DNA of 20,776 bases from a virus, in the IMG/VR virus record IMGVR_UViG_3300037294_000094, positions 1 through 20,776 of that record. One strand, given 5' to 3'. Positions 3,001-18,811 of the stretch are shown here, one piece after another (position 1 is the stretch's first letter; every line of letters begins with the position of its first letter). The position numbers were made by a program, and so were the translations under genes. Below the pieces are notes generated by a model. The model did not search any database. It was given only the letters and a program-made list of their open reading frames with translations, and was not told where the DNA came from.

Positions 3001-4980
3001 AACACAGTTTCAGGTGCAGCTACATTGCAGTCTAAAATCTCTGAAAGCAATGGCGTTGATACAGTATACACTATCGGACAGCAGGTATTAGAAAATAATT
3101 CAGTGTTGGTATACGTTGACAAAATTAAACAAACTGATTACATTTTAGATTTAGAAAATTATAATGTTGAATTTAACTCATCACCTGTATCCGGATCAAT
3201 AATTGAAATATTATCAGTAGGTATTGGCGGCTTGGGAATTTTAGATTATCAAGAATTTGTCGCAGACGGCACTACTAATTTATTTTTAACCAATGCAAAT
3301 TTTGATTACACTTCTTCTATATTTGTAACAGTAAATGGTGAACAGTTAGATACTGGATTTACAAATAGCACAGATGTAGTAGATGCAGTTGGTCGAACAT
3401 TGGTACAATTTGGGTTTACTCCTGAATTAGGTGATATTACCAAGATTGTTTGTTTTGAAGCAGCAAGTGATGTTGATTCATCCGGCGTACCAATTGTTAA
3501 TATTAATACTCAAACTGTATATTTTGAAGGAAGCACACGCAGTTTTGACCTAACTAATTTTGTTAATCTGACTAGAGGGTCTGCAAGAAATTCTATGATC
3601 GTTGAAGTAGCAGGTACTGTATTAAAAGGTTCGGACACTACATATACAATTTATAACGGTACAAACAATGTATTCACATTAGGTCTTGATCCTTTTGAAA
3701 CCCCTGGTAGTATTTTGCCAAGTAATATACGAGTTTTTATCAATAACATTGATGCAGTATTTATTACTGATTATGTATTTGACGGTCCTACAAAGATTCT
3801 AACAATTTATCCAACTAAATTGACCGTTGGTGATATTATTAAAATTCAAAACGATCTTAGAGCAGAATACACCGTTGTTGATAGCAATCTTGTAATTGCA
3901 GATTCTGTAGATATAACTTCAGTTGATGAACTATCTAACACAGAAGTGAACATTACTTGGTTCGGAGAATACCCGTCATTAGATGTTGTATCCGATGAGA
4001 GAGCCGGAGGCCGAGTACAATATCAATTATCAAGAACTCCAATTTCAGCAAGTTACGTTTGGGTCTATAAAAACGGACAGCGCCTAACTCAAGATGTTGA
4101 TTATTATGTTTCCTTGCCACGAGGAGTGGTATATCTTAATATAGATAGTACTGCTGAAGATGATATTAAGACACTAAGTTTCTCTAGACAAATCTTTAAA
4201 CTGCCAAGTGCTTATGAAATTCATAAGGACATGTTAAATGTATATCACTTTAACAGATTTGCCAAAGGTGAGATCAAATTAGCATCAACTTTGAATTATT
4301 ATGATACCACGTTGACTGTTGATAATGCTGACACATTATCAGATCCAATAGCTAGCAGAAATATTCCAGGTGTTGTTTGGATATCTAGTGAACGTATCGA
4401 ATACATGACTAAAGTTGGTAATGTTTTAGGACAGCTAAGAAGAGGAACTCAGGGTTCTCCAATAGGGGAAGTTTACAATGTTAACACCGCAGTTGTTGAT
4501 ATCGGACCTCAAGACACTATTCCCTACAACGAAACACAAGACAGAGCAGATTTCTACAGTGACGGTAGCTCTGTATTAATTGGACCGTTAGAATATGTGC
4601 CTGCCCAAGGTGTCCGCAGTGGTATTTGGTACAGAGACACTATTCCTACAGAATACGGTCCTTGCGACCAAATTGAAGTGTTTGCAGGTGGTCGCAGATT
4701 ACGTAAAGATCCTGTTGATATTTGGGTAGAAGCAAACGGTGCATATAGTCCTGCTGCTGACGAGACTGCAGAAGCAGAATTTTCAGTAGACGGCGCAGCA
4801 GCATACATTCGCTTAACAGAGCCGCTAGTAGCAGGAACTAGAGTAACAGTGATCAAGAGAACAGGTAAAACATGGTATGATAGGGGTGCAGCGACTGCAA
4901 GTGCAGGGGCTACATTGCTTGATAATACAAGTGCTATTGCTAAATTCATTGCGCAGAAGAGCACGTCTATACCTGAATAA
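1..4980 (+). CDS. Giant virion structural protein (tail/baseplate type), 5'-partial
   Basis: The frame is open from the first base of the window with no stop before it, so the true start lies upstream; the TTG at 10 is not a convincing start. At least 1,659 codons are present. Numbering from the TTG, two copies of a glycine-rich beta module (G-x-G-Y, then PP-x-V-x-I-x-G, then GTGATA) lie near residues 232-289 and 583-643. Between and after them are many short beta modules of the type 'adG-t-x-F-L ... V-x-V-n-G ... P-x-x-G-D-I-I', common in phage fibre and tail proteins. Near 1455-1485 there is a W-I-S-S-E-R-I-E-Y ... Q-L-R-R-G-T segment known from phage structural proteins. The central DYINEVKPYR-type segment resembles very large structural proteins of marine T4-like phages. 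The last three bases are TAA, four bases before the next ATG. A virion role is well supported by composition and context; the exact location in the particle is not. Confidence 0.8.
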   Translation: MKQLFSTATGTVTQTLYYYWVKNKAVTPSNMPGRNRSAAEVATLIASPAGTGTAFIALVASDKFLAYNFDSIIRSSTALLNFKYKTDITNSIPVHSEYQLLSEGVASSLPTKKLEDKWIDSLIGYDAVGNRVPASNLPAKQKYGVSFRPRQSMFVDKSAALKIAVNRINTILNQQAFATLIDFTNLNLTDAVPNAVLNLYDTVVDTELDLQNVGTVRTKRAILYANLVNGELDTIDIIDPGFGYKVIPPVVISGDGTGATAAVTLDNQGRVTAVTITARGKKYSNITSTVRYFSVLVNADTTINNFWSIYSWDNVRNVFFRSQSQAFDTTRYWAYTNWWMADYSIDTRITRELLNVYNEELYTILVGDLTRIKEYGSGGWAVFEKVSDTADTFLDRFMLVGRENGTIQLSASLYDTTIFGIGFDNTQAFDDTNYDLNNSAEMRNIFKAVKEDIFVSDYAVEWNNIFFASMRYILSEQTYVDWMFKTSFLNATHNVGELASPPNYRNDNLSNYQDYINEVKPYRTTVREYVSRYNTPEAYGSALTDFDLPATYSKADGKVVPITANRSELDAYPWKWWTDNNSYSIVEITVYDQGTQYTTPPTVLITGNGTGATAQAYISNGKVSGIVVLTSGTGYTFAPVITLVGGNPSGATTAKAVSIIGNTAVRTFNVGVKFDRITKDGIYNSYTQSETFTANGLTSVFELSYAPTRNKINISITKNNQLVLNGDYTLTLYYSTSDSYSLLRGKIIFNAAPVAGDIITVLYDKNIELLDAVNRIDQNYNPTSGMIGKELNQLMTGIDFGGVQIQGTTFDVTGGWDALPWFTDNWDSVEASSDYYNVCDGSTGVVTLPYVPAAGQELNIYIKRAGQTASTRIDDPNYTDAWDSTSAVNPNAQMPTFIGDGVTSDVEIAQYIQTNVGDILIFRPIESDGSVTITDEQLLDTQISGGTLSSIDSAYITATGAAAEDITINGGTFTSPAYVPAPEENVPGQVLDSVSIKVYNNTVSGAATLQSKISESNGVDTVYTIGQQVLENNSVLVYVDKIKQTDYILDLENYNVEFNSSPVSGSIIEILSVGIGGLGILDYQEFVADGTTNLFLTNANFDYTSSIFVTVNGEQLDTGFTNSTDVVDAVGRTLVQFGFTPELGDITKIVCFEAASDVDSSGVPIVNINTQTVYFEGSTRSFDLTNFVNLTRGSARNSMIVEVAGTVLKGSDTTYTIYNGTNNVFTLGLDPFETPGSILPSNIRVFINNIDAVFITDYVFDGPTKILTIYPTKLTVGDIIKIQNDLRAEYTVVDSNLVIADSVDITSVDELSNTEVNITWFGEYPSLDVVSDERAGGRVQYQLSRTPISASYVWVYKNGQRLTQDVDYYVSLPRGVVYLNIDSTAEDDIKTLSFSRQIFKLPSAYEIHKDMLNVYHFNRFAKGEIKLASTLNYYDTTLTVDNADTLSDPIASRNIPGVVWISSERIEYMTKVGNVLGQLRRGTQGSPIGEVYNVNTAVVDIGPQDTIPYNETQDRADFYSDGSSVLIGPLEYVPAQGVRSGIWYRDTIPTEYGPCDQIEVFAGGRRLRKDPVDIWVEANGAYSPAADETAEAEFSVDGAAAYIRLTEPLVAGTRVTVIKRTGKTWYDRGAATASAGATLLDNTSAIAKFIAQKSTSIPE

Positions 4981-4983
4981 ATA
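4976..4983 (+). promoter_or_regulatory. Possible T4-type late promoter box (AATAAATA)
   Basis: The 8-mer differs at one base from the T4 late -10 element TATAAATA. It sits at the junction between the giant structural gene and the next start, and its 11-base context AATAAATACAT recurs exactly at 13021-13031, also in a gene junction. If it works like T4 late promoters, RNA would begin near 4989, so the ATG at 4985 would be off the transcript and the in-frame ATG at 5012 would be used. One-mismatch boxes also occur by chance in this AT-rich DNA. Confidence 0.35.
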
Positions 4984-4984
4984 C

Positions 4985-5146
4985 ATGATGATGGAGTCAA
5001 ACGAGAATAAAATGCCGCAAAATCAAGAAAAAAATACACCTGCCCAGGAAGCTCGCCCTAATGAAACAGGCGGGTTTCACTTTGAAGGGCACATCAAGAT
5101 CTGGGATCCAGAGTCAGCAGAAGTTTATATTGACAAACGAGCATAG
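4985..5146 (+). pseudogene. Truncated 5' fragment of a virion structural gene (interrupted by the homing endonuclease gene)
   Basis: This short frame encodes 53 residues from the ATG at 4985. In-frame ATGs at 4988, 4991 and 5012 are alternatives, and 5012 is the better one if the late box at 4976 is used (weak GAG at 5003). The end of the peptide, FEGHIKIWDPESAEVYIDKR followed by Ala and a stop, matches the start of the complete protein at 5786-6400 at 12 of 19 positions with several conservative changes. It ends exactly where the downstream protein continues with N-A-I-H-Y. This fits an original gene broken at that codon by the endonuclease gene that begins two bases after the stop. It is probably a remnant, but the reading frame and residues are well kept, so a made peptide or a joined product cannot be excluded. 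Confidence 0.6.
5081..5094 (+). repeat. Left copy of 14-base direct repeat flanking the endonuclease gene
   Basis: TTTGAAGGGCACAT occurs here and at 5822-5835, 741 bases apart. Over the 60 bases that start at the repeat the two copies agree at about 41 positions (my hand count). They encode the shared FEGHIKI peptide and mark the re-encoded start of the target gene. Confidence 0.8.
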
Positions 5147-5147
5147 A

Positions 5148-5801
5148 ATGAATATATTTAAACCTACACATCTATATATTAAACAACATTCTGTTACAGG
5201 TATGTATTATTTTGGTAAGACTACTCGTTCTGAAAAATTTCTTTTAGAAAAATATAACGGCAGCGGCAAGCACTGGAGTAACCATTTAAAAAAGCACGGA
5301 TCCGAATCTGTAAAAACAATATGGTATGAATTATTTAACGATATTGATGAGTTGACGGAATTTGCGTTGTTCTTTAGCGAAGAGATGAATATAGTAAAAT
5401 CAAAAAAATGGGCAAACGAAAAGGTTGAAAATGGATTAGGCGGGAGCAGTATTGGGAGACCTGGATGGATACCGGCAGATTCTACTAGAGAATTATGGAA
5501 AAAACAAAGAACAGGTCGAATTACGAAAGATTCAACAAAAAAGTTAATGAGTGAACAGCGATCTGGTAATAAAAATCCGTTTTATAATAAAATTGATAAG
5601 GAACATCCATTGTATGGTTTTAAACATACCGAAGAGGAAAAACAAAATAGATCGTTGCGTGCTTCTAAACAATTTAAAATTACCTCTCCTGCCCACGAAG
5701 AATTAATCGTCATCAATTTAACTAGATGGTGCAAAGAAAATAATATAAATTACTTTACAGTATATAATCAATTAAAGGGATGGAAATGTCAACTAATTTA
5801 G
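5148..5801 (+). CDS. GIY-YIG family homing endonuclease (free-standing, mobile)
   Basis: The ATG at 5148 gives 217 residues; the in-frame extension to 5061 is only a shifted reading of the upstream structural fragment. Residues 9-11 (LYI) and 20-23 (YYFG, then KT) form a GIY-YIG signature, followed by Y-N-G-S-G-K-H-W at 36-43 as in phage GIY-YIG endonucleases. E71, in an acidic helix, is a candidate for the metal-binding glutamate. About 139-175 (NKNPFYNK, then HPLYGFKHTEEEK) resembles NUMOD3-type DNA-binding repeats. About 190-211 (NLTRWCKENNINYFTVYNQL) resembles a C-terminal helix-turn-helix of the same enzyme group. Such enzymes cut phage genomes lacking the insert and spread the gene by repair. 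It lies inside a structural gene whose start is duplicated on both sides. Its stop overlaps the next start by 16 bases, suggesting translational coupling. The Shine-Dalgarno site is weak (GAG at 5139). Family assignment is firm; activity is not shown. Confidence 0.85.
   Translation: MNIFKPTHLYIKQHSVTGMYYFGKTTRSEKFLLEKYNGSGKHWSNHLKKHGSESVKTIWYELFNDIDELTEFALFFSEEMNIVKSKKWANEKVENGLGGSSIGRPGWIPADSTRELWKKQRTGRITKDSTKKLMSEQRSGNKNPFYNKIDKEHPLYGFKHTEEEKQNRSLRASKQFKITSPAHEELIVINLTRWCKENNINYFTVYNQLKGWKCQLI
5744..5751 (+). promoter_or_regulatory. Weak candidate late promoter inside the endonuclease gene end (TATAAATT)
   Basis: Seven of eight bases match the T4 late box. RNA would begin near 5757, ahead of the ribosome site AAGGG at 5775-5779 and the ATG at 5786. 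Similar one-mismatch boxes appear inside other genes here (17763, 11719, 17528), so position is the only support. Confidence 0.25.
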
Positions 5802-6400
5802 TAGAAAAAACAATGACCACATTTGAAGGGCACATTAAAATATATGATCCCGAGACCAAAGAAATTTTTTGTGATCGTAAAAATGCCATTCACTATGAAA
5901 ATATGTCAGTGGCAATGGTACAGAGTTTAAGTAATCAAGGTCAAGGAACTGTACATCAAATGGTGTTTGGAACCGGCGGCACTATTGTTGATCCTACCGG
6001 ATTGATTACTTACTTGACTCCAAATACTATTGGTATAAACTCAAGTTTGTACAACCAAACATATAGTAAAATTGTCGATCAAAATTCTAGCTCTAATACA
6101 GATCCAGTTAGAAACAAAATGGAAGTTAGACACATCAGTGGTGCTACTTACAGTGATATTTTAATTAGTTGTTTATTAGATTATGGTGAGCCTTTAGATC
6201 AACAGGCGTTTGACAATTCTGTAGATATGAACGGTAACTTTGTATTCGACGAACTAGGATTAGTTAGTTATAGTCCGAGCGGAACTGGCAAATTATTAAC
6301 TCATGTAGTGTTCCACCCTGTACAGAAATCATTAAACAGATTGCTTCAAATTGATTATACAATTCGAGTACAGAGCTTAACCGGTTTTACAGGAGCTTAA
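5786..6400 (+). CDS. Phage virion structural protein (complete, re-encoded N-terminus)
   Basis: The ATG at 5786 is chosen because AAGGG at 5775-5779 lies six bases before it; the ATG at 5780 is too close to that site, and 5813 (MTTFEGH) is a further option. The product is 204 residues. It carries IHYENMSVAM, then a glycine-rich V-F-G-T-G-G-T-x-V-D-P-T-G segment, S-S-L-Y-N-Q-T-Y-x-K-I-V-D, SDILISCLLDYGEP, and a C-terminal PVQKSLNRLLQIDYTIR. I recognise this pattern from structural proteins encoded beside tail genes in marine T4-like phages, but cannot place it in the virion. Its first 20 or so residues repeat, with different codons, those of the truncated fragment at 4985-5146. It is followed within four bases by the first tail fibre gene and its end holds that gene's ribosome site, so it belongs to the late tail operon. 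Confidence 0.7.
   Translation: MSTNLVEKTMTTFEGHIKIYDPETKEIFCDRKNAIHYENMSVAMVQSLSNQGQGTVHQMVFGTGGTIVDPTGLITYLTPNTIGINSSLYNQTYSKIVDQNSSSNTDPVRNKMEVRHISGATYSDILISCLLDYGEPLDQQAFDNSVDMNGNFVFDELGLVSYSPSGTGKLLTHVVFHPVQKSLNRLLQIDYTIRVQSLTGFTGA
5822..5835 (+). repeat. Right copy of 14-base direct repeat flanking the endonuclease gene
   Basis: Identical to 5081-5094. It encodes the FEGH stretch of the intact structural protein and lies just after the endonuclease gene. Confidence 0.8.
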
Positions 6401-6403
6401 TAG

Positions 6404-8515
6404 ATGCCATATACCGTTAATTTTACAGATAGTGCAAATAAGACTCCTATTACAGTATTTGATAACACTTCAAATACAGATACAAGTATAACATTTCCAG
6501 GCCGTAATGTAACAGGATACGGACAGATTATTGCAGAAAACTTTCTTTCTCTATTAGAAAATTTTGCATCATCAACGGAACCAGTTAATCCAACTGAAGG
6601 GCAACTTTGGTACGATAGTAACAACGGTGTTATGATGATATGGGACAACACTAGTTGGAAAGCTGCCTCTGGTATTCAAAAAGGACCAACAGAACCTGCT
6701 ACTGAAGCCAGCAAGATTGGTGAATTGTGGGTCGACACTACTAACCAGCAGTTGCGAATTTTTACAGGTACTAGATGGTTATTAGTTGGTCCTGCTGAAA
6801 GTTCAGTAGACGGACTAAGATATGGTCCAGTGGTTGAAAGTGTTTCAGATTCTGATAACATAACACGATATATTTTAACATTCTATATTGCAGATATTCC
6901 TGTTATTATTTTCTCAAAAGATAGTTTTACTCCTAAGGTTATTATTTCTGGATTTGATATTGTTAGATCCGGAATCAATATGGCCGCCCCAACTACGTCC
7001 GGCGAAATTGAGAACTTCATTGGCGGATTTCTCCCTTCGGTATATGGTACAGCTAAAAACGCCGATGCTCTTAATATAGGCGGTGTTGAAGTTGCAGCTG
7101 GTAAATTTTTAAGATCAGACATTACTAATACTACCGACTTCGGGATCAACGTTAGAAATAATAATGGATTAATCATCGGAGTTGACGGCACATTTAATGT
7201 TGGAACCACTGCAACTAGTGCAAAAATTTACAACTCTGCTGCTGGTAGCTCAATCGATCTCCAAACCAACCGCAATGGTATTCCTGCAACTATTTTACGA
7301 GTAGTTGGTAACACTATTGGTATTAATCAAGCAACTCCGTCAGAAGCATTGGATGTAGACGGGAATATTAAATCTACAGGTGCAGTAATTGTTACAGATG
7401 TTACTGCAAGTACTAACCTAAATAACGGTAGTATTAGAACATTAGGCGGCATTTCGATTACTAAGAATCTATTAGTTGGTGATGGAGCAAGTATAACAGG
7501 AACACTTCAAACTAACATAATACAACCAAGTGTAACCGATGTACACGATCTAGGTACAAGTTTAAAACGTTGGAATACGGTAAGAGCAAAAACTATTGTA
7601 GCTGACACAATCCAAGGTGTGCTAGATGGCAGCATTAGCGGGAACGCAAACACCGCAACAAGTTTAAAAAATATAACAACTTTTCAAATGTCAGGAGACA
7701 TCGTTAGTCCAACAGTATCATTTGATGGACAAACTGGTAGTTATACTAAAATTTTTAATACTACATTAACTTCTAATATTATTTCTGGCAAAAGTGATCC
7801 GTTTCCAAACATATCTAAAAAGACAGATTATGTATTAACCTATCGTGCTAGTGAATCTTCAGCAGCATCATCAGGACTGTTAAAACAAACAAGAGACACA
7901 TTTATTGCTGACTTAGGAATCCCGCTAGGTGCAATGCTTCCTTATGCAGGCTCTGATGCACCTTACGGATTTTTACTGTGTGACGGATCTGAAATTGAAA
8001 GAGCTAAGTATCCAGATCTATACGATATTGTTGGAACAACATATAACGGCACAATATCATTATTAGGAGTTAATACTTACAGACTTCCTGATTTACGAGG
8101 TAGGATGCCGCTCGGTAAAGATAATATGGACAACGGCGGAACTGTTCCTGTAGTTACTGGTGGTTTTGTTGATGGCGGTGGCGGCACTGCTGCTCGTGTA
8201 GCAGACATCAAGGCACAGACTCTTGGCGGAAGTGCAGGTCAAAGTTCCGCTACCTTAACACTGGCGAATTTACCTGAACATAGTCACTCACTAAGTTCTG
8301 GAAGACAAGACTATGCTGCGGTAGCAGTTACAACAACTATTGATCCAGAAGCAACTACTGGTCTAGGACCAACTGCACCAGGACAAGCACAATATTTAAA
8401 AGACTCTGGAGGCATTAAAAAACCAACAGGAACTACACTAAGTACCCCAGTGGGTATTATGAATCCTTATCTAACAATTAATTATATTATTAGATCAGGT
8501 CCCCCGGTATTTTAA
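6404..8515 (+). CDS. Tail fibre protein with C-terminal tail-collar domain (fibre paralogue 1)
   Basis: AGGAG at 6391-6395 is eight bases before the ATG. The 703-residue protein begins with the module shared by four fibre genes here: GYG at 38-40, LLENFA about 49-54, then G-Q-L-W-Y-D at 66-71 and G-E-L-W-V-D at 106-111. The middle is low-complexity beta repeat with ALDVDGN and DLGTSLKRWNTVRA segments typical of phage fibre shafts. The C-terminal part, from about residue 505, is a phage tail collar domain: IPLGAMLPYAG, GFLLCDGS, then YRLPDLRGRMPLG. It continues with HSH at 626-628, like the metal-binding H-x-H of T4 short tail fibre gp12, and ends with NPYLTINYIIRSG. The likely role is a trimeric receptor-binding or short tail fibre. 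It is the only one of the four with a collar domain. Which T4 gene it replaces is not certain. Confidence 0.85.
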   Translation: MPYTVNFTDSANKTPITVFDNTSNTDTSITFPGRNVTGYGQIIAENFLSLLENFASSTEPVNPTEGQLWYDSNNGVMMIWDNTSWKAASGIQKGPTEPATEASKIGELWVDTTNQQLRIFTGTRWLLVGPAESSVDGLRYGPVVESVSDSDNITRYILTFYIADIPVIIFSKDSFTPKVIISGFDIVRSGINMAAPTTSGEIENFIGGFLPSVYGTAKNADALNIGGVEVAAGKFLRSDITNTTDFGINVRNNNGLIIGVDGTFNVGTTATSAKIYNSAAGSSIDLQTNRNGIPATILRVVGNTIGINQATPSEALDVDGNIKSTGAVIVTDVTASTNLNNGSIRTLGGISITKNLLVGDGASITGTLQTNIIQPSVTDVHDLGTSLKRWNTVRAKTIVADTIQGVLDGSISGNANTATSLKNITTFQMSGDIVSPTVSFDGQTGSYTKIFNTTLTSNIISGKSDPFPNISKKTDYVLTYRASESSAASSGLLKQTRDTFIADLGIPLGAMLPYAGSDAPYGFLLCDGSEIERAKYPDLYDIVGTTYNGTISLLGVNTYRLPDLRGRMPLGKDNMDNGGTVPVVTGGFVDGGGGTAARVADIKAQTLGGSAGQSSATLTLANLPEHSHSLSSGRQDYAAVAVTTTIDPEATTGLGPTAPGQAQYLKDSGGIKKPTGTTLSTPVGIMNPYLTINYIIRSGPPVF

Positions 8516-8527
8516 TTAGGTAAAAAC

Positions 8528-10342
8528 ATGGCATATCAAATTAACAAAACAGACGGAACAATTGTAGCAACAGTAGCTGACGGACAAGTGGATACGTTAT
8601 CCACTGATCTTACTCTTATTGGAAAAAATTATAGTGGGTTTGGCGAAGCATTAAATGAAGATCTTGTAAAGCTCTTAGAAAATTTTGCCAGCACCTCAAC
8701 CCCTACTCATCCAATTAGAGGGCAGATTTGGTTTGATACATCGGAAAATAAATTAAAAGTCTACAATGGTATAAGTTTTGTTCCAGTTAGTTCTGCAACT
8801 ATTTCTAATACACAACCTGACACGCTGGCTATTGGTGACTTATGGTTTGATAATACAGCAGCTCAACTTTACTTTTTTGACGGAACTAGTCCAATTTTAT
8901 TAGGTCCTGCTTATTCATCGACACAGGGACTAAGCGGATTAAAAGTTGAAAGTATTTTAGATACATTGAATCAAACTAAAGTTATAACTTATTTTTATAA
9001 CAACGGTATTTTATTAGGAATTTTTGCCAAAGATAGCTTTACTCCTAAAACAGATATTGTAGGGTATACCGGAAGCATTGAACCAGGGTTTAACGCCGGA
9101 ACATTACCAGGAATTAAATTTAATGTAACATGTACTAATGCCGAGCAACTAGGTGGAACGCCAGCAACTACATATGTTAGATCCGACACTTCAAATGCTA
9201 TTAATGGTCAATTGAGAATTACAACAGACTTAGGTATCGTTGTAGGATCGGCCGGACAAATGAGTTTGTATGTTACAGCAGGCGACATTTATATGTCTAA
9301 TTCTTCAACAGATAAAAGTCTAATATTAAACGTCAGAAAAGGCATTACACAAGAAAATGCCATTGCTATTAATGCTGCTAACAGAGTAGTTTCATTATAC
9401 GACGGATATATAGATAGCGTAACGAATGTAGGTGGAGACCTAATAGTTACCGGAAACTTAACAGTAGAAGGCTCGACTACTACTCTTAACACAACAGAGT
9501 TGATTGTTGAAGATAAAAATATTGTCATTGCTAGTGTTGACTCTCCAACTAATACAACAGCGGACGGTGCCGGCATTACAATTAAAGGCACCACCGATAA
9601 AACAGTCTTGTATTCAGAATCAGACAATTGGTTGGACATATCTGAAACCGTTAATCTAGCATCCGGTAAAGCTATATACATTGGTGGAACATTGGTCATT
9701 GACGGAACTAGTTTAGGTTCGACAATAACTAGTATTCCGGGTGTCACTTCTTTCGGTACACAAACAGTGATTAATATCGGTTCCGGTATCCCGGCAATAC
9801 CTCAACTGAGATTAGAGGAACATCGAATTTCTACAGTATCGAACAATTATGATATTGAGTTATATCCAGATGGAACCGGCAACATTGTATTAAATGACAC
9901 AGCAAGAATTACTAATATAGCTAATCCAATAAATCAACAAGATGCATCGACTAAAGAATATGTTGACAATGTTGTTGAAACTCGATCTTTAGTTTTTAGT
10001 ACTGATTTATCAGATGCTAAATCGAATACTTATATTATTAACAACATATTAAATAATCTTGCTCCACCTGGAGAGTTTAGATCAGGGACTATTGCTAGAA
10101 TTTTATGCACAATTAATACAAACTCAACAACAACGTTTAATATTAATTCGTTGCCCCCTACAGTTAATACATCACAGTTTTTAACAAGTATGAGTGGAGA
10201 CACGTCGTTAGCAGTAATCGGATTATCATTTCCTTCTGCCACGTTGTCTGCTCCTATTCTATCGACTACTCGAATTATTAAAGAGTTTAGACTTAATATT
10301 GGTGTTTGGCTATGGCAGTCAGATACTTTATTACCCCCATGA
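8528..10342 (+). CDS. Tail fibre protein (fibre paralogue 2)
   Basis: AGG at 8518-8520 precedes the ATG by seven bases. The 604-residue product has the shared N-terminal module: GFGE near 37, LLENFA near 49, G-Q-I-W-F-D near 64 and G-D-L-W-F-D near 105, then an LGPAYSSTQG segment. About residues 300-336 hold GGDLIVTGNLTVEGSTTT and LIVEDKNIVIAS, followed by DGAGITIKGTTDKT; this block recurs in shaft regions of cyanophage-type fibres. Near 472-482 DASTKEYVDN is a motif common just before fibre tips. The final 120 or so residues are unlike those of the other three fibres and I do not recognise them; they may be the receptor-binding tip. It is separated by 20 bases from the next fibre gene, whose ribosome site lies in that gap. 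Confidence 0.8.
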   Translation: MAYQINKTDGTIVATVADGQVDTLSTDLTLIGKNYSGFGEALNEDLVKLLENFASTSTPTHPIRGQIWFDTSENKLKVYNGISFVPVSSATISNTQPDTLAIGDLWFDNTAAQLYFFDGTSPILLGPAYSSTQGLSGLKVESILDTLNQTKVITYFYNNGILLGIFAKDSFTPKTDIVGYTGSIEPGFNAGTLPGIKFNVTCTNAEQLGGTPATTYVRSDTSNAINGQLRITTDLGIVVGSAGQMSLYVTAGDIYMSNSSTDKSLILNVRKGITQENAIAINAANRVVSLYDGYIDSVTNVGGDLIVTGNLTVEGSTTTLNTTELIVEDKNIVIASVDSPTNTTADGAGITIKGTTDKTVLYSESDNWLDISETVNLASGKAIYIGGTLVIDGTSLGSTITSIPGVTSFGTQTVINIGSGIPAIPQLRLEEHRISTVSNNYDIELYPDGTGNIVLNDTARITNIANPINQQDASTKEYVDNVVETRSLVFSTDLSDAKSNTYIINNILNNLAPPGEFRSGTIARILCTINTNSTTTFNINSLPPTVNTSQFLTSMSGDTSLAVIGLSFPSATLSAPILSTTRIIKEFRLNIGVWLWQSDTLLPP

Positions 10343-10362: not shown

Positions 10363-12657
10363 ATGTCATATATTATTAACAAATTTAACGGCGAACAGTT
10401 GATAGTTCTACAAGATGGAACTATTGATACTACCACTAGTCTTAATCTAGTGGGTAGAAATTATGTAGGATATGGCGAAGCACAAAATGAAAATTTCGTG
10501 TTCATGCTAGAAAATTTTGCCAATCCTAGTCCTCCATCAAGACCGCTGCAAGGTCAAATTTGGTTCAGTACTGCTGATAATTCTGCCAATGTGTATGATG
10601 GAACAGCATGGGGTCCAATTGGCAATGCAACGTTGAGTCCTACTGCCCCAATCACAGCCAACAACGGCACGCTATGGCTAGATACCAATGCCGATCAATT
10701 AAAAATTTATACAGGTACCGATTGGGAATTAGTAGGCCCTGAAGCAGTTGCAGAATTTGGAACCACACGAGCTAGGTCTATATCAGTTGACGACTCGTTG
10801 GGAAATCCTAAACCGATAATTATTATAGAAACCGACGGAGTCCCAATGGCTATCTGCTCGTCAGAAGCATTTACTATCAATACTGGATTTTCAATTACTG
10901 GATTTAGCAATGGTTTGATATCGGGAATTAATTTATCAAATACATCTAAAATAAACGGTAGTATTACCGGCAATGCACCTACTGCAGACAAGCTATTAAC
11001 TGCTAGATCTATTAACGGCGTTCCGTTTGACGGAACTTCGAATATCACACTTAGTGCATCTACTACCAATCCGTTAGTAAGCGGTACTTATATTTTAGGA
11101 AATGATTTCAACGGAAGTGTAGCAACAACTTGGTCGGTCGATGCTACTTCGTCAAATGTTATCGGAAAAGTTGTTGCTAGAAATAGTGTAGGTGGATTTT
11201 CCGCTGGACAAATTACAGCATCATTTGTTGGAGAGTTAACAGGAAATGTAACTGCAACTTCCGGATATAGTTCTTTTAATGAAGTAAGAGCAACAACATT
11301 TGTTGGAGCTACCTTAACAGGAACTGCCAATGCTGCAAATCAATTGGCAAATACTCGTAAAATTAACGGAGTTAACTTCAATGGTACTAGTGATATTACT
11401 ATTACTTCCGCCGCAGCAACACTAACAGGTAACACCCTGGCACCAACTGTTGCATTATCAAGTTTAACATCAGTTGGGACTCTTACTGCATTAGCAGTAG
11501 CAGATGCTGGTATAGATGTAGGATCAGCTAGTCAATTAAAAATGTTTGTTGATGCTAGCACTCCGACTATTAGGTCAGCTACCGGTACTCTAAATTTTGA
11601 TATGGGCAGTACAGGGCCTGATGTTTCGTTTGTCAATGCAACACGATCGTTGTCCTTAGGAGGCCCGAATGCTCCTGCAATCATTGGTGATAATACTACC
11701 AACCTTGGCATAGCTGGTTATAAATTTAATAATGTCTATGCAAATAATTTTGTAGGCAATGCAGATACTGCAACCTTGGCAACTAGTTCTAATAATTTAG
11801 TAGGCGGCGGCAGCGGCGCACTACCTTACCAGTCAGCAATTGGAACAACATCAATGTTAGGCTTAGGCGCAGACGGCTACGTTCTAAGAGCAAGAACTGC
11901 TGGACCAACATGGGAAGCATTAAGCTACGAACAATTGAACAAAGGTAGTTATGTTAATATGATTAACACATCTACCACAGGCAACGTAAGCTCCTATAGT
12001 TCGTCAATTCCGGTAACAATCAGTGTTGATGCTACAAGCGCAAACACTGTAAGCAAAGTAGTTGCTAGAGATAGCAGCGGCAATTTTGCAGCAGGAACAA
12101 TCACTGCTAATTTAGTAGGTGCTGTTACAGGTGCTGTTACAGGTAATGCATCCACTGCATCAAGTTTACAAACAGCAAGAACTATCAATGGTGTGAGTTT
12201 CAACGGAACTACTAATATCACAGTACCTGCATTAGATGCATCAAAGGTGCCGTTAGCCGGCGGCTCTATGTCAGGATACCTAACACTAGTTGGCAGTCCT
12301 GTATCCACTAATCACGCCGCCACTAAATCCTATGTAGATACACAAGTAGCCGGCGTGACTAACTTTACAGCTATATCAGGAAATACGATCTACAGCACTT
12401 CGGGATTTACTAATCAAGTAGGATCATTCAATAACGGTGCTAACTTTTTTGATGTATTTCCTCCAAGTGGTAAGACTATGAGCAATCTAGTAGCATTTGT
12501 GCCAAGTATTGCAGTGATACATTTTGCTGGCGGAGTTAATGCCGATGACAGCATGCGGTGTACATGGAGTAACTTAGGCGATAGAATTAGAGTTTATGTT
12601 CAAAATACTGAACAACGATCAACACCTGCCGCAAACTATATGGCAATTTGGAGTTAA
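10363..12657 (+). CDS. Tail fibre protein (fibre paralogue 3)
   Basis: AGGAG at 10350-10354 lies eight bases before the ATG. The 764-residue product starts with the same module (GYGEAQNENF near 36, G-Q-I-W-F near 64, G-T-L-W-L-D near 102). The shaft has three copies of a T-A-R-x-I-N-G-V-x-F-x-G-T-x-N-I-T unit near residues 213, 330 and 604, and two copies of a V-x-K-V-V-A-R-x-S unit, so it has grown by internal duplication. ATKSYVD near 653-660 precedes a C-terminal tip of about 100 residues of unknown fold ending in AANYMAIWS. Bases 12121-12144 are an exact 12-base tandem duplication. Its end carries the ribosome site of the small gene that follows. Expected to be a trimeric surface fibre; target unknown. 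Confidence 0.8.
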   Translation: MSYIINKFNGEQLIVLQDGTIDTTTSLNLVGRNYVGYGEAQNENFVFMLENFANPSPPSRPLQGQIWFSTADNSANVYDGTAWGPIGNATLSPTAPITANNGTLWLDTNADQLKIYTGTDWELVGPEAVAEFGTTRARSISVDDSLGNPKPIIIIETDGVPMAICSSEAFTINTGFSITGFSNGLISGINLSNTSKINGSITGNAPTADKLLTARSINGVPFDGTSNITLSASTTNPLVSGTYILGNDFNGSVATTWSVDATSSNVIGKVVARNSVGGFSAGQITASFVGELTGNVTATSGYSSFNEVRATTFVGATLTGTANAANQLANTRKINGVNFNGTSDITITSAAATLTGNTLAPTVALSSLTSVGTLTALAVADAGIDVGSASQLKMFVDASTPTIRSATGTLNFDMGSTGPDVSFVNATRSLSLGGPNAPAIIGDNTTNLGIAGYKFNNVYANNFVGNADTATLATSSNNLVGGGSGALPYQSAIGTTSMLGLGADGYVLRARTAGPTWEALSYEQLNKGSYVNMINTSTTGNVSSYSSSIPVTISVDATSANTVSKVVARDSSGNFAAGTITANLVGAVTGAVTGNASTASSLQTARTINGVSFNGTTNITVPALDASKVPLAGGSMSGYLTLVGSPVSTNHAATKSYVDTQVAGVTNFTAISGNTIYSTSGFTNQVGSFNNGANFFDVFPPSGKTMSNLVAFVPSIAVIHFAGGVNADDSMRCTWSNLGDRIRVYVQNTEQRSTPAANYMAIWS
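12121..12144 (+). repeat. Exact 12-base tandem duplication in fibre gene 3
   Basis: GCTGTTACAGGT occurs twice in a row and encodes AVTG-AVTG in the fibre shaft. Being a multiple of three, changes in copy number would keep the frame. Confidence 0.9.
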
Positions 12658-13055: not shown

Positions 13056-14861
13056 ATGGCATATCAAGTTAATAATTTTAATGGCGGGTTCCTAGTAAAT
13101 GTAGCAGATGGAACTATCGATACTACTACAGATCTACGATTTGTTGGTAAAAACTATGCAGGTTACGGAGAAATTCAAAACGAAAATTTCCTACACCTTA
13201 TGGAAAATTTTGCAAATACCACAGCTCCGCCTAAAGTTGTTGCAGGACAAATTTGGTATGATAGTGCAAATAAAAAACTTCGATATTACGATGGATCGCA
13301 ATTTAAAGTAGCCGCAGGCGCACAGGTCAGCGCTACTGCTCCTGGTGGATTGACTACTGGCGATTTTTGGTGGGATACTTCTGCTAAACAATTATACACA
13401 TGGAACGGAACAGACTACACATTAGTTGGCCCAGTTTCTAGCCCAGACTTAGGTACTTCTATTATCAGTGCAGCAGTAGTAAAAGGCACAGTAGGTACAT
13501 CGTTTGGCCCGCACACTGTATTAAAAGTAATCGCTGATGATAAAACTATTGGCATTTTTAGTAAGACTGAATTTACTATTGACAATGCACAAAATCCTAT
13601 TGAAGATTTCACAGTTGTTAAAAAAGGATTTACTTTAGCTAAGTCACAAACTGGTGTATCAACTGACAGTTATGCCATGTGGGGAACTGCTCAAAATTCC
13701 AATCAGCTTGGCGGATTTAACGCTGATCAATACATTAGAGTTGGTGATAATTCTTTTGTTAGTGAAGTTGCGTTTAGAGACCCCGGATTTCAAGTAGGCG
13801 ATGGTAACGATTTAAGAGTCCGTATTGAAAATGGTGACGAAGCTGTAATAGAAAATCGACTAGGTAATCCTATTACTTTTAGGATCACAGTAACCGAAAC
13901 GACAGACGAACGAGATATTGCAGTTATTCAATCCACCGGACTAGTTCCGGGTAACGACAACGTTTATACGTTAGGTACTGCATTATCGAGATGGAATAAT
14001 GTCTATGCCGCTACAGTTACCGGTAACGTAACTGGTAATGTCACTGGTACCGTAACTGGTAACTTAACTGGTAATGTATTCGCATCTGACAGTCAAATAC
14101 TGATAAACGCTGCTACTAACCAGATTGGATACGCCGGCGCAACTATTGTAGGTACCCTGACTGGATCTGTAACAGGTTCCGCAGCAACCGCTACTAACGC
14201 TAGCAAATTAAGTGATTTAGAGCCATCCGCAGCAGTACCGGGATCTGCAATTGCTACTATTCCTGTTAGAGATGCAACAGGCAACATATATGCTAACCAG
14301 TTTGTTGGTATTGCAGATAAAGTTGATAGAACATTTATTGATAAAACCGATGCAGTCTCAGATCCAGCTTGGTCAGATGCTACTGCAAGTACAAAATATA
14401 GAACAGCAAGATTAAGTGCAACTGCATACAGTATTGCGGCACGTGATTCTAGTGGTAATATTACTGCTACTATTTTTAACGGTACTGCAACCGCGGCTCG
14501 TTATGCCGACCTTGCAGAAAAATATCTAACAGACAAAGAATACGAACCAGGAACAGTGGTATCCGTTTGCGAGCATCCGGAACATGAAGTCGAAGCATGC
14601 AGTGTAGGACAACTTGCTATCGGTGTGGTGAGTACTAATCCAGCATTTATGATGAACAAGGATCTAGAAGGCGGTACCTATATTGCACTTAAAGGTCGAG
14701 TTCCTTGCAAAGTCGAAGGTGCAATTAAGAAAGGCCAACGATTAGTCGCTGGTTCAAACGGATCAGCTGTAGCAGCAAATAATTCAAACGATGTATTTGC
14801 AGTAGCATTAGAATCAAACTTAGACACTGGTGTTAAAACAATAGAAGTGTTGGTATTATAA
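13056..14861 (+). CDS. Tail fibre protein with possible self-processing C-terminal domain (fibre paralogue 4)
   Basis: GGAG at 13041-13044 lies 11 bases before the ATG, and a late promoter box precedes it. The 601-residue product has the shared N-terminal module (GYGEIQNENFLHLMENFA near 36-53, G-Q-I-W-Y-D near 64, G-D-F-W-W-D near 104). DNVYTLGTALSRWNNVYA near residue 300 leads into a V-T-G-N repeat (five 12-base units) and a SVTGSAATATNA shaft. From about residue 485 (YLTDKEYEPGTVV, AIGVVSTNPAFMMN, then RVPCKVEGAIKKGQRLVAGS) there is a compact C-terminal domain widely found at phage fibre ends, similar to domains grouped with intramolecular chaperone or peptidase G2 types. Three cysteines lie in this domain (VSVC, EAC, VPC). 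Autocleavage is possible but not shown; no catalytic residue could be assigned by eye. Confidence 0.8.
   Translation: MAYQVNNFNGGFLVNVADGTIDTTTDLRFVGKNYAGYGEIQNENFLHLMENFANTTAPPKVVAGQIWYDSANKKLRYYDGSQFKVAAGAQVSATAPGGLTTGDFWWDTSAKQLYTWNGTDYTLVGPVSSPDLGTSIISAAVVKGTVGTSFGPHTVLKVIADDKTIGIFSKTEFTIDNAQNPIEDFTVVKKGFTLAKSQTGVSTDSYAMWGTAQNSNQLGGFNADQYIRVGDNSFVSEVAFRDPGFQVGDGNDLRVRIENGDEAVIENRLGNPITFRITVTETTDERDIAVIQSTGLVPGNDNVYTLGTALSRWNNVYAATVTGNVTGNVTGTVTGNLTGNVFASDSQILINAATNQIGYAGATIVGTLTGSVTGSAATATNASKLSDLEPSAAVPGSAIATIPVRDATGNIYANQFVGIADKVDRTFIDKTDAVSDPAWSDATASTKYRTARLSATAYSIAARDSSGNITATIFNGTATAARYADLAEKYLTDKEYEPGTVVSVCEHPEHEVEACSVGQLAIGVVSTNPAFMMNKDLEGGTYIALKGRVPCKVEGAIKKGQRLVAGSNGSAVAANNSNDVFAVALESNLDTGVKTIEVLVL
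14016..14075 (+). repeat. Five-unit 12-base tandem repeat in fibre gene 4
   Basis: Units follow GTNACTGGTAAY with small changes: starts at 14016, 14028, 14040, 14052 and 14064. They encode V-T-G-N, V-T-G-N, V-T-G-T, V-T-G-N, L-T-G-N. The period is a multiple of three, so slippage would lengthen or shorten the shaft without a frameshift. Confidence 0.9.
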
Positions 14862-14862
14862 T

Positions 14863-15756
14863 ATGAGCGGCTCAGGATCACAAATTGCAGCTTCTGATTT
14901 TGTAACCATACAAGATAAAGCGCAATCTTTATTAGGAACAGGGTCAACAACTCGAGGCTATGGACAACCGGTCCAGTCAGCCGATGTATTTGCTGGCAAC
15001 GAAATTACCAAAGCTCAATGGGATTTTTTAAGATACGACATTGTAAATATCAGACTTCACCAAGACGGTGTATTACCTAATATTGTCACTGTTAATGTTG
15101 GAGATGTCATTGGATACGGAGCAGGTTCCCCTAATACAAATTATGATACTTTATTAGAAACAGCGATAGCAAACCGATTTCAAATTGCGCAAAGTCAATC
15201 AGTAGTTGCTAATAAGGGGACAGCGACTACTTCGTCGTCTTGGTCAGCAAGTGCGACCATGGAATTAACTATAACTTTTGCAAATTCAAACGATGCTAGA
15301 TATTTTTTCAACAGCGGCGGAAAAGTAAGAATAACCCCAACACTAACAGGCGGCAACGGAACGGCACAAGTAAATGCCTGGACTAATTTTTTAACCAGTG
15401 TAGGTACACAATCGTTTGGCGCCGCCAATGTTCTATCAAATTATTACACACTAACGAATTCTTATCAAACATATTATCAGAATTCGTTGTCAACTCCGTA
15501 CTCTGCAAATAATATTAACTTATCTGCCAAAACTAACGTGGCCGATAACTCATCAGGAACTGCAACAATATTGTATTTAAAAGTAACATTAAATGATGCA
15601 TACGTAGACGTAAATCCTAGCCCTCCTGGCGATTTAGTAAACGGCACATTATCACTATCCATAGACGAATTAAAAGCCACAGGTGCGCTAATCCCCTCCG
15701 GAACATTTGTTATCACTAGTCCGTCCTACTCGCTTTCTAGTATAACACTATCATAA
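14863..15756 (+). CDS. Putative virion protein, tandem paralogue A
   Basis: The ATG follows the stop of fibre gene 4 by one base; no clear Shine-Dalgarno site is seen, so it may depend on coupling. The 297-residue product shares a clear pattern with the next gene: an N-terminal helix (I-x-x-K, then G-x-G-S, then GYGQ), W-x-x-L-R-Y-D-I-x-N-x-R-x-H-Q-x-G-x-L-P, then Y-D-T-L, a central ARYFFNSGG-x-V-R-x-T, W-x-x-L-x-S-x-G-T-Q-S-F-G, and a beta-rich end with D-x-Y-V-D. Low charge and Ser/Thr/Asn richness suit a virion surface protein. I have seen this family only as uncharacterised proteins in tail regions of T4-like phages; no enzymatic motif is visible. A minor tail, fibre-tip or decoration protein is likely. 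Confidence 0.65.
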   Translation: MSGSGSQIAASDFVTIQDKAQSLLGTGSTTRGYGQPVQSADVFAGNEITKAQWDFLRYDIVNIRLHQDGVLPNIVTVNVGDVIGYGAGSPNTNYDTLLETAIANRFQIAQSQSVVANKGTATTSSSWSASATMELTITFANSNDARYFFNSGGKVRITPTLTGGNGTAQVNAWTNFLTSVGTQSFGAANVLSNYYTLTNSYQTYYQNSLSTPYSANNINLSAKTNVADNSSGTATILYLKVTLNDAYVDVNPSPPGDLVNGTLSLSIDELKATGALIPSGTFVITSPSYSLSSITLS

Positions 15757-15774: not shown

Positions 15775-16713
15775 ATGGCTGTCAACGATAAAATTAAATT
15801 TTCTGATTATAATAACATCCGATCTAAAGTAGAAGGTATTATGGGCTCGGGATCTGTTAATAGTGGGTACGGTCAATCTTTAGTAAGCTCTGCAGTTGCA
15901 GATGGTAATACTGTAACTATTAACGAATGGGCAAATTTAAGATACGATATTATCAATGCCCGGGTACATCAAACAGGATCATTACCATCTCCTGTTGCAG
16001 TTGTGGAAGGTAACACAATAAGATATAGTGCTGTTGATGCACCAGTTACTACATATGACACACTTGCAAATTCCGTAGTAACTGATAAATTTACAGTAGG
16101 TGCAGGTCAATTTGCAACCAATGTTCCTAGTGATCCGTCAACACGTACCGGAAGTTGGGTCAGTTCGCTATCGTGTACTGTACAGTTTTATTGGGCAAAC
16201 GCAACTCAAGCAAGATACTTTTTTAATTCCGGTGGCCAAGTAAGAGTTACTGCAAGTCGCAGCGGCGGAGTATCTAGCCAACAAAATACTTCATGGACAT
16301 CGTTGTTGAGTTCTACAGGCACACAGTCGTTTGGAGGAAATAATCCTGGAACCGGCACTAGTCCTGCTACTGGAACTAATTGGTATAGATGTACTAACTC
16401 TTTCCGAACATACTATTCTGCAAGTTCTTCTAGCCCGTATGGTAGTAATTCTTATCAATTACAATCTCGAACAGTAGATGTAGCAAGTAATGCATCCGGA
16501 ACATCAGCTAGTGGTGAAATTCGAGTACTCTTTACAGACGGATATGTCGATCCTGGCCCACTTGGCCCACCATTTACAACTGATGTTGTTGACGGTACAA
16601 TTAGCGTTTCAGTTGATTTAATATATGCTACTGGTATTTTGTATCCTACCGGATTTGGAAATTTTACTGTAACTAGACCAACTGTTGCTATTAGCAGCAT
16701 TACTGGCTCTTAA
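15775..16713 (+). CDS. Putative virion protein, tandem paralogue B
   Basis: This 312-residue product is a diverged copy of the preceding gene: GYGQ, LRYDIINARVHQTGSLP, TTYDTLANSVV, ARYFFNSGGQVRVTASRSGG and STGTQSFGGNN line up in order. It has an extra glycine/threonine-rich loop after the last of these (GNNPGTGTSPATGTN) that copy A lacks. The 18-base gap before the ATG has no clear ribosome site and only a poor promoter-like TTAAATA, too close to the start to serve. Its stop is followed by the 57-base gap with the late promoter, so it probably ends the fibre transcription block. Same role as copy A is expected: virion surface or tail tip. Confidence 0.65.
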   Translation: MAVNDKIKFSDYNNIRSKVEGIMGSGSVNSGYGQSLVSSAVADGNTVTINEWANLRYDIINARVHQTGSLPSPVAVVEGNTIRYSAVDAPVTTYDTLANSVVTDKFTVGAGQFATNVPSDPSTRTGSWVSSLSCTVQFYWANATQARYFFNSGGQVRVTASRSGGVSSQQNTSWTSLLSSTGTQSFGGNNPGTGTSPATGTNWYRCTNSFRTYYSASSSSPYGSNSYQLQSRTVDVASNASGTSASGEIRVLFTDGYVDPGPLGPPFTTDVVDGTISVSVDLIYATGILYPTGFGNFTVTRPTVAISSITGS

Positions 16714-16770: not shown

Positions 16771-17115
16771 ATGGACAAGAGACTGCAAGCAGCGTTAGAT
16801 TTTTCTAACTATCAACAAACATTCGCAATCAAACGTAAGACCCTTAAAGAAAAAATTGAAGCCAAACTAACCTATGGGTTTAATGGCGGGCTGTTTCGCA
16901 TTGATAAAAATTTATTAACTTTTGTAGAAGTGATCTCCGCAAAGAGATCTAATGGAGTTGTACTAATGGATGCAAATGACAATCCAATTTTAATAGACGA
17001 TCTAGAAGCGTTCAAAGATGAAATTTTTAGTAGATATTTTGAAGCCACTAACGAATACTACGAACAATACCAGCAATTGAAAAAAAGCAGATCTGTAGAA
17101 AAGTTAATTGCATAA
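16771..17115 (+). CDS. Small conserved phage protein of unknown function
   Basis: GGAG at 16762-16765 is five bases before the ATG. The 114-residue product is highly charged and mostly helical: an N-terminal helix with many lysines (KRKTLKEKIEAKL), a centre N-G-G-L-F-x-I-D-x-x-L-x-T-F-V-E, then V-V-L-M-D-A-N-D-N-P-I, and a C-terminal F-E-A-T-N-E-Y-Y-x-x-Y-x-x-L-K-K-S-R-S. I recognise this pattern from short uncharacterised proteins of T4-like cyanophages, but no function is known to me. It is the first gene of the operon that then runs into glycosyltransferases; its stop shares one base with the next start (TAATG). No signal peptide or membrane segment. Confidence 0.65.
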   Translation: MDKRLQAALDFSNYQQTFAIKRKTLKEKIEAKLTYGFNGGLFRIDKNLLTFVEVISAKRSNGVVLMDANDNPILIDDLEAFKDEIFSRYFEATNEYYEQYQQLKKSRSVEKLIA

Positions 17116-17975
17116 TGACAACAGGTATTTTAGTCTATGCACATAACAGTCGATCGTTAGATTATGCTCTGATGTCGTTGATAGCCGGCGGCCTTGCCAA
17201 AAAAAATCTCAATGTCCCTGTGTCGTTAGTAACGGATCCTTCGACTGTAGAATGGATGAGAGAATCTAACATTTTAGAAAAAGCCACATCTGTATTTGAA
17301 AATTTAATAATAGTAGAAAGACCTATCACTGACAATCAGCGCAAATTATGTGATGGTAAAAATGAATCAATGGTACCATTTGTAAATTCAAATAGAGCAA
17401 GCGCCTACGATTTAACACCGTATGATAGAACACTGTTAATAGACAGTGACTACTTTATTTTTTCGAACAGATTATCCGAATATTGGAACATTGACGACGA
17501 TGTTCTAATAGGTCAAAGTATAAATGATATATACTCCGGTGATCGACTAGGCTATAATGATCGATATATTTCCGAAGTAGGAGTTAAGCTATATTGGGCC
17601 ACTACTGTAATGTTTAGCAAAACGCCACATGCTAAAACGTTTTTTGACACAGTAAATTTTGTAAAAGAAAATTACAAGCATTACGCAGATATTTTTAGAT
17701 TTGATAATCGTCAGTATAGAAACGATATTGCATTTAGTGTTGCAAAACATATATTAGATGGCTTTATAAATCTAGACTCCGGTAAATTGCCTCCAGTGCT
17801 AACCGCATTAGATAAAGATATATTAGCCTCAGTAGAGGGTAACAAATTAACATTTTTGATATCAACTCCATTAGGCGAAAAATATATTCCAGCGTCGATT
17901 ACCGACACTGATATACACATAATGAATAAGCAGAGTATTATTAGATACGGATCGCAGCTATTGGAGATGATATGA
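17115..17975 (+). CDS. Glycosyltransferase-like protein (GT-A fold, DxD), copy 1
   Basis: The start overlaps the previous stop (TAATG). The 286-residue product has an N-terminal beta-strand and helix (GILVYAHNS, then YALMSLIAGGLAKK) and S-L-V-T-D, as in sugar-nucleotide-binding Rossmann-like folds. RTLLIDSDYFIF follows, with D110-S-D112 as a metal- and nucleotide-sugar-binding DxD motif. A later stretch, YWATTVMFSK, fits the acceptor-side strand seen in GT8-like enzymes, and D-T-D-I-H-I-M-N near the end could supply a metal-binding histidine. Length suits small GT-A enzymes. The sugar and acceptor cannot be told. Likely cytoplasmic; placed directly after tail genes in the same late operon, so it may modify virion proteins or host glycans. 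No membrane segment is seen. Confidence 0.65.
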   Translation: MTTGILVYAHNSRSLDYALMSLIAGGLAKKNLNVPVSLVTDPSTVEWMRESNILEKATSVFENLIIVERPITDNQRKLCDGKNESMVPFVNSNRASAYDLTPYDRTLLIDSDYFIFSNRLSEYWNIDDDVLIGQSINDIYSGDRLGYNDRYISEVGVKLYWATTVMFSKTPHAKTFFDTVNFVKENYKHYADIFRFDNRQYRNDIAFSVAKHILDGFINLDSGKLPPVLTALDKDILASVEGNKLTFLISTPLGEKYIPASITDTDIHIMNKQSIIRYGSQLLEMI

Positions 17976-18811
17976 GTTTTGGATATCTACTAGTTGTATC
18001 AGAACATGAGTCTGTTGATTATTTAAAATTAGCCTACGGACTTTCCCTAAGCATTAAAAATACTCAACGTGAAGGGTACGATAAAGTTGCTCTTGTAATT
18101 GACAATAAAGAAAAGTTATTAGGGTTAACAAGCTCATGGGTATTTGATCACGTCATTGAATGGAATCAAGAAACATTTTGGGACGGCCGTAGTTGGATGG
18201 ATCAGCTAACACCGTTTGACAACACAGTATGTCTCGACGTTGATATGTTGTTCACAGAAGATTACAGTCATTGGGCCGAATACTTTATTGAAAACTCAGA
18301 ACTTTACATTGCTAATAAAACCTATACCTATAGAGGCGAGGTAATCACCGGTGATTATTACCGACGCACATTTACAAAAAATAATTTGCCTAACCTGTAT
18401 TCACTGTATACTTTCTTTAAAAAGGACAGTAAGCTAGCAGAAGAATTTTTTGAGCTCGGTAGACAAATTATTAAAAACCCAGTTGAATTTAGTAATTTAT
18501 TTTTATCAGAACACAAGCCAAAAGTTGTAGGTACAGACGAAGCATTTGCCCTAGCTGCAAAACTTTTAGATATAACTGATGTCATTGCTTATCCTCTAGA
18601 GTTTCCTCGCATAGTGCATATGAAACCTATGGTACAGAATTGGCCATGGCCCGCCGACACATGGAGCGACCACGTGGGCTTTTATCTTAATCGCTACGGT
18701 AAATTAAAAATAGGAAATTATCAACAAAATGGCATCGTGCATTATGTTGAAAAAAATAAAATCGACGATGAAATGATTAATATCTTAGAGGAAATAGCAT
18801 GGAAAAAGTAA
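17972..18811 (+). CDS. Glycosyltransferase-like protein (GT8-type, DxD), copy 2
   Basis: The ATG overlaps the previous stop (ATGA) with GGAG at 17963-17966, five bases ahead. In the 279-residue product, YLLVVSEHESVDYLKLAYGLSLSI is the N-terminal strand and helix, and NTVCLDVDMLF carries the DxD motif (D89, D91). GTDEAFALAAKL fits the later acidic helix of GT8-like enzymes. RIVHMKPMVQNWPWP resembles the C-terminal H-x-x-x-K-P-W region that binds metal and diphosphate in GT8 proteins. These four elements in order make a glycosyltransferase call sound; donor and acceptor are unknown. It shares fold but little direct sequence with its neighbour. Its end overlaps the next gene by 13 bases. Confidence 0.7.
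   Translation: MSFGYLLVVSEHESVDYLKLAYGLSLSIKNTQREGYDKVALVIDNKEKLLGLTSSWVFDHVIEWNQETFWDGRSWMDQLTPFDNTVCLDVDMLFTEDYSHWAEYFIENSELYIANKTYTYRGEVITGDYYRRTFTKNNLPNLYSLYTFFKKDSKLAEEFFELGRQIIKNPVEFSNLFLSEHKPKVVGTDEAFALAAKLLDITDVIAYPLEFPRIVHMKPMVQNWPWPADTWSDHVGFYLNRYGKLKIGNYQQNGIVHYVEKNKIDDEMINILEEIAWKK

Follow-up and report, generated by a model that had tools for sequence, protein, structure and literature searches.

The window analysed here, a virus record of 20,776 bases taken at its full length, raises the question of how a virion gene came to be preceded by an endonuclease gene and by a short reading frame that resembles its own start. Behind a giant ORF that is open at the window's 5' edge and stops at 4980, a 53-codon ORF, an endonuclease gene and a complete baseplate-type gene follow one another at 4985-6400. 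A sequence-only reading had recognised this row of short ORF, endonuclease and re-encoded main-gene start, which we confirmed, and had explained it by an endonuclease that split a gene whose lost start was then rebuilt with new codons. We propose instead, as the probable explanation, that an endonuclease cassette occupies the junction of a short gene and a main gene and spreads together with the 5' end of the latter, and that in the window's ancestor it turned one gene into a split one. The same arrangement was found in three other contigs, each from another metagenome, so it is not an assembly artefact.

The short upstream gene (4985-5146, plus strand, 53 aa) translates as MMMESNENKMPQNQEKNTPAQEARPNETGGFHFEGHIKIWDPESAEVYIDKRA, followed by the stop. 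It consists of a Pro/Gln/Glu-rich stretch with an RPNETGG motif, then the beta-hairpin sequence GHIKIWDPESAEVYIDKR and the end RA-stop. The earlier claim that it ends at DKR was right in naming the site where the intact copy continues with NAIHY, but its true last residues are DKR-Ala-stop. This KRA-stop end is conserved among short genes, which finish with ..(E/D)(K/T/G)R(A/G/S)-stop and most commonly with ..CGAGCATGA; at the commonest junction, the two genes share an ATGA, in which the short one stops and the main one starts. The window's short gene was assigned by its profile match to the short genes of 40 endonuclease-free loci and by the common ..CGAGCA-stop end. In the last 29 codons of the short genes there are 0.18 nonsynonymous versus 0.57 synonymous differences per site, and between the window and contig L001 dN is 0.04 and dS 0.34. 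These rates indicate that the short gene is a maintained small gene under purifying selection. What had been taken for a fragment is thus a gene and no debris.

One base past the TAG of the short gene (5144-5146) lies the ATG of a free-standing GIY-YIG homing endonuclease gene (5148-5801, plus strand, 217 aa), assigned from NUMOD3, GIY-YIG and PHROG 314 matches. Its NUMOD3 motif, a DNA-binding element at residues 123-149 (5514-5594, plus strand) behind the nuclease domain, was found by Pfam profile search with an E of 4e-7 and 30.2 bits versus a cut-off of 20.4. The GIY-YIG match is weak (E 0.0027; 18.4 bits, under the Pfam cut-off of 22.6), and residues 15-212 match PHROG 314 'homing endonuclease' with an E of 1.5e-12. 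The structure model has a mean pLDDT of 55 and is confident only in the C-terminal ~45 residues. The protein is 100% identical in the three other contigs (L001, L082 and L083), the last two of which were added by a search with the endonuclease as query, and it was not found in 11 one-gene records nor in the record of the empty-site relative L150, some of these records being fragments. The features of mobility are present: the site is fixed, the endonuclease is variable among relatives and the flanks are co-converted. An intein was rejected, since the endonuclease frame has stops at its ends and does not continue in phase into the gene pieces on either side. A 51% relative of the enzyme was also seen at an unrelated locus of two contigs (L084, 164-766; L085, 1645-2247), between unrelated genes, where its end overlaps the ATG of the next gene in a 3' layout like that of the window.

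The complete main gene (5780-6400, plus strand, 206 aa) belongs to the baseplate-type virion protein family PHROG 11259 (6e-71), and it starts inside the endonuclease's final codons (5780 versus 5801), with candidate ATGs at 5780, 5786 and 5813. Its second start (residues 1-34; 5780-5881, plus strand), whose CDRK end precedes NAIHYEN, re-encodes the hairpin as FEGHIKI.DPE...E...D. The repeat reported earlier is therefore real, although our count is 12/20 residues identical to the short ORF and 34/54 hairpin bases (0.63). Relatives of the main protein occur in the jumbo phages Phosso, Atu_ph07, RaK2, CBB and PA5oct, where they adjoin baseplate and tail genes, and the annotation of the PA5oct relative carries virion mass-spectrometry evidence. 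No PDB relative was found by sequence search. The structure model (pLDDT 83, with 64 relatives as input) forms two beta strands at residues 8-34, the re-encoded part, and gave VIA Z scores of 9.9 with an HFTV1 tail protein, 7.7 with phiKZ gp139, 7.0 with phi812 and A511 gp105 and 6.0 with the T4 baseplate chain 5hx2_B, with a Foldseek E of only 0.05. The model suggests a baseplate wedge fold.

Further downstream, we noticed four tandem tail-fibre-like genes (6404-8515, 8528-10342, 10363-12657 and 13056-14861) with a common N-terminal module (VGKNY..GYGE..NENF..LLENFA..GQIW) and differing rear parts, the first of them containing a tail collar domain. Two adjacent paralogue-like genes follow at 14863-15756 and 15775-16713, alike in their N-terminal and ARYFFNSGG motifs, and genes that by eye look glycosyltransferase-type adjoin the fibre genes at the right end of the window (17115-20776).

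Since the short ORF stops where the body of the main gene continues, splicing or ribosome bypass might join both pieces during expression, with the middle part as an intron or a hop. We consider this very improbable. The main gene already has a complete start of its own, a search of 4800-6600 gave no Rfam match with E up to 1 (group I/II introns included), and elsewhere the same short gene has no insert behind it, the two genes overlapping or standing a few bases apart.

How the locus looks in relatives bears on whether an intact gene was split. In the first similarity scan, the gene was uninterrupted in 79/79 other loci, the sole split being that of L001, and uninterrupted relatives read ...PNETGGFHFEGHIKIFDP..DKR-NAIHYENMSV. 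After two more scans, 203 loci were sorted with the short-gene profile; the rows counted were 119 with one long gene, 40 with two genes and no endonuclease, 24 others lacking the short gene and 10 with two genes and an endonuclease. In a tree of the main-gene body, calculated with the first 15 residues left out, the window and L001 fall within 53 rows, 51 of them one-gene (support 98/90), and this set lies inside 59 rows, 57 of them one-gene (support 100/98). As the sequence-only reading had expected, relatives lacking the insert in the window's clade thus possess one uninterrupted gene that corresponds to the fragment plus the body, and no endonuclease-free two-gene locus was found in the 59-row clade. 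The 40 endonuclease-free loci in which the short gene accompanies a complete main gene belong to other clades. Such loci were what the sequence-only reading had named as refuting it, and they mean that this insertion did not in itself create the two-gene form. The idea that an endonuclease split a gene is supported for the window by its one-gene clade, but it does not account for the two-gene form.

One-gene and two-gene forms interleave across the tree with 9 changes, so that an old two-gene state may have persisted in the window's lineage. According to the corresponding alternative, the pair of short and full gene is ancestral, the endonuclease settled in a ready junction, and in the one-gene relatives a deletion running from one hairpin-coding stretch to the other, similar one later fused the two genes. 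The spread of endonuclease-free two-gene loci across the tree speaks for it, as do the conservation of the KRA-stop end and the ATGA overlap, the presence in single genes of the short gene's PNExxG extension fused to the body, and three endonuclease-bearing loci (L138, L161 and L176) that are clearly in two-gene phages. However, with no endonuclease-free two-gene locus in the window's clade, an ancestral pair requires many parallel fusions there, and we rate this alternative as rather unlikely. At its junction, the window has CGAGCAT like the two-gene loci, versus CGN-AAYGCN in one-gene relatives. In one further two-gene locus (L099, 2668-3000), a 353-base gap without long ORFs and an altered NSINFEN were seen. 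The gap is possibly the scar of a lost endonuclease; as a decayed endonuclease gene it was rejected, having no significant sequence match to the enzymes.

Evidence that the cassette moves together with its flanks came from comparing occupied loci with one another. The window and L001 are 84% identical across 4 kb, but in a transferred block of 815 bases (5096-5910, plus strand) they differ by one mismatch, at 5703, versus 81.5% and 83.8% identity in the flanks. This block runs from the end of the short ORF through the entire endonuclease gene into the main gene, where it covers the second start and ends 28 bases past the start of the NAIHYEN codons. A second block, in the pair L210/L213 and numbered from the endonuclease ATG, shows zero mismatches between +403 and +797 and crosses both the main ATG (+637) and NQIHYEN (+720), while beyond it mismatches are dense on the right and far left and the flanks are about 0.7-0.9 identical. 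The first tract indicates that the end of the short ORF travelled as one block with the endonuclease and the main gene's new start, and the second likewise links endonuclease and start; transferred tracts can also arise from ordinary recombination. L212 and L213, which are ~99% identical, dip to 86% at +709 to +809, just behind NQIHYEN, and there L213 resembles L210, an apparent small conversion patch on the 3' side of the endonuclease.

A comparison of an empty with an occupied site shows what such a visit would leave behind. The body proteins of L150 (empty) and L138 (occupied) are nearly identical, and both loci agree through ..AAACGAGCATGATTC / ..GAGAAACGAGCATGATTC and again from CATTACGAAAATATCAGTAT. 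Between these stretches, L138 contains an endonuclease, which starts at the position of the ATG of the L150 main gene, followed by a foreign main-gene start. The hairpin identity of this pair is 0.37 versus 0.854 in the body, a value under all 28 control pairs, which indicates that the main gene start was replaced outright in L138. The donor of the window's own cassette was not found, the nearest hairpins by DNA being those of ordinary one-gene relatives with an identity of 0.74.

The junction is occupied by an endonuclease also in Atu_ph07, L109/L110, L138, L161, L176 and L210-L215. These belong to at least four tree-separated lineages, which points to at least four separate arrivals. The enzymes of the window, L138, L161 and L176 form one family (34-37% to the window's), and those of Atu_ph07 and L109 share mainly their rear half with the window enzyme; the Atu_ph07 enzyme matches LEM-3_GIY-YIG with 29.8 bits, over the cut-off, and that of L109 matches SegE_GIY-YIG under the cut-off. 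In the isolate Atu_ph07 (MF403008.1, 1627-3061), a 42-aa piece, a GIY-YIG endonuclease and the full gene follow one another. There, the endonuclease is annotated as hypothetical and the arrangement is absent from the annotation. Phosso, its sister phage, has one uninterrupted gene.

The explanation given earlier for the second start was that the endonuclease entered an intact gene and that the lost N-terminus was rebuilt with new codons selected against the cleavage site. The one-gene state of the sister phages agrees with it, and so do the target codons. In the window's lineage, KR before NAIHYEN has become RK (DRK-NAIHYEN), a swap seen in 1/183 endonuclease-free loci, and the other four endonuclease-bearing lineages have N-Gln or N-Ser in place of the N-Ala present in 180/183 endonuclease-free loci. 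The target codons are hence altered in 5/5 endonuclease-bearing lineages, in a comparison that is post hoc and uncorrected for shared ancestry. Apart from the three endonuclease-bearing relatives, a scan for the DRKNAIHYEN pattern returned only L091, which is a distant phage of the two-gene type and has no endonuclease. Immunity to its own putative enzyme fits the altered codons and is circumstantially suggested by them. Against a rebuilt start, the two-gene form is widespread without endonuclease, and the divergence of the window's start is about that of normal relatives. Compared with the hairpins of L002 and L003, the window's second one has an identity of 0.67-0.70, which is ordinary for its body divergence (22nd and 31st percentile of controls), and over the four best body matches it lies at the 7th-31st percentile. 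This test, which drew on 4700 endonuclease-free pairs, does not bear out the window's start as a divergence outlier, so divergence does not demonstrate a special recoding; L138 is such an outlier, and L161 and L176 are mildly so. As an imported start accounts for new codons without selection, a two-gene junction brought in from elsewhere fits better than rebuilding, which we hold to be distinctly improbable.

We thus favour the spread of a cassette, which may be pictured as follows. A free-standing GIY-YIG gene would inhabit, in jumbo-type phages, the junction between the short gene with its KRA-stop end and the main baseplate gene, and its cassette would also bring the start codon and hairpin of the main gene. 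The putative enzyme presumably cuts the hairpin/NAIHYEN-coding stretch of phages without endonuclease, and repair from the donor would copy the endonuclease and the donor start jointly, in line with the observed identity tracts spanning both. In a normal two-gene recipient, this would swap the main gene start, from the state of L150 to that of L138. The window's ancestor had one long gene, to judge from its place in the tree, and would have ended up with short gene, endonuclease and full gene, and the donor was probably a two-gene phage, because the window's junction is like that of two-gene loci. Both the short and the main gene would stay functional, as suggested by the amino-acid constraint on the former and the completeness of the latter. 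With both parts functional and the main gene starting within the endonuclease's end, the cost to the phage would be little. A wider idea, which we put forward as doubtful, is that recurring endonuclease visits switch this virion gene between one-gene and two-gene forms in jumbo phages, that free-standing hairpin peptides become genes in this way, and that the endonuclease-free two-gene loci are scars of invasion.

Several known systems resemble this locus in part. T4-type phages contain free-standing seg and mob endonucleases, such as mobE in nrdA (Aeh1) and mobA beside gene 60 (PMC2988022). The seg genes are likewise free-standing GIY-YIG genes in or beside a conserved gene, the ATG of mobE abuts the upstream stop (UAAUGA) as it does here, and translational coupling, co-conversion of flanks and split coding regions are common to both (PMC2988022). 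In mobE and mobA, however, both halves yield one protein, (PMC2988022), whereas at our locus nothing is missing from the downstream gene, whose start is re-encoded within it, and the piece upstream is maintained as a gene of its own that also exists without endonuclease. HEG islands sit at recombination boundaries between phages and, as here, place endonuclease genes next to structural genes at the edges of exchanged DNA; they are large and carry T5orf172/HNH enzymes, in contrast to the ~0.8 kb, the GIY-YIG enzyme and the one recurrent junction of our case (PMC10448857). In the open-licence literature, we did not find a phage virion gene whose 5' end was replaced and whose displaced piece lives on as a gene.

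The nearest parallel in logic comes from mobile ORFs in fungal mitochondria, which import a foreign gene end, a replacement C-terminus in atp6 of Allomyces and in atp6, atp9, cox2 and nad3 of Glomus (PMC3630166). There too, the endonuclease moves with a foreign end of its target gene and the displaced native end lies beyond, and the window-type cassette would work like such an ORF, with no claim of the same lineage. In the fungal genes, it is the 3' end that is replaced, and the displaced native end is unexpressed in atp6 and cox2 (PMC3630166); here, the gene belongs to a phage baseplate, its 5' end is the one replaced, and selection still acts on the upstream piece. Since the phage locus offers both empty and occupied sites, several enzyme lineages and a cultured phage (Atu_ph07), it becomes testable how a virion protein can have its start rewritten by a selfish gene, and whether new small genes arise in the process. 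To the replacement-end homing genes of the literature consulted, which are those of fungal mitochondria and concern the 3' end, this locus would add a recurrent case in phages, at the 5' end.
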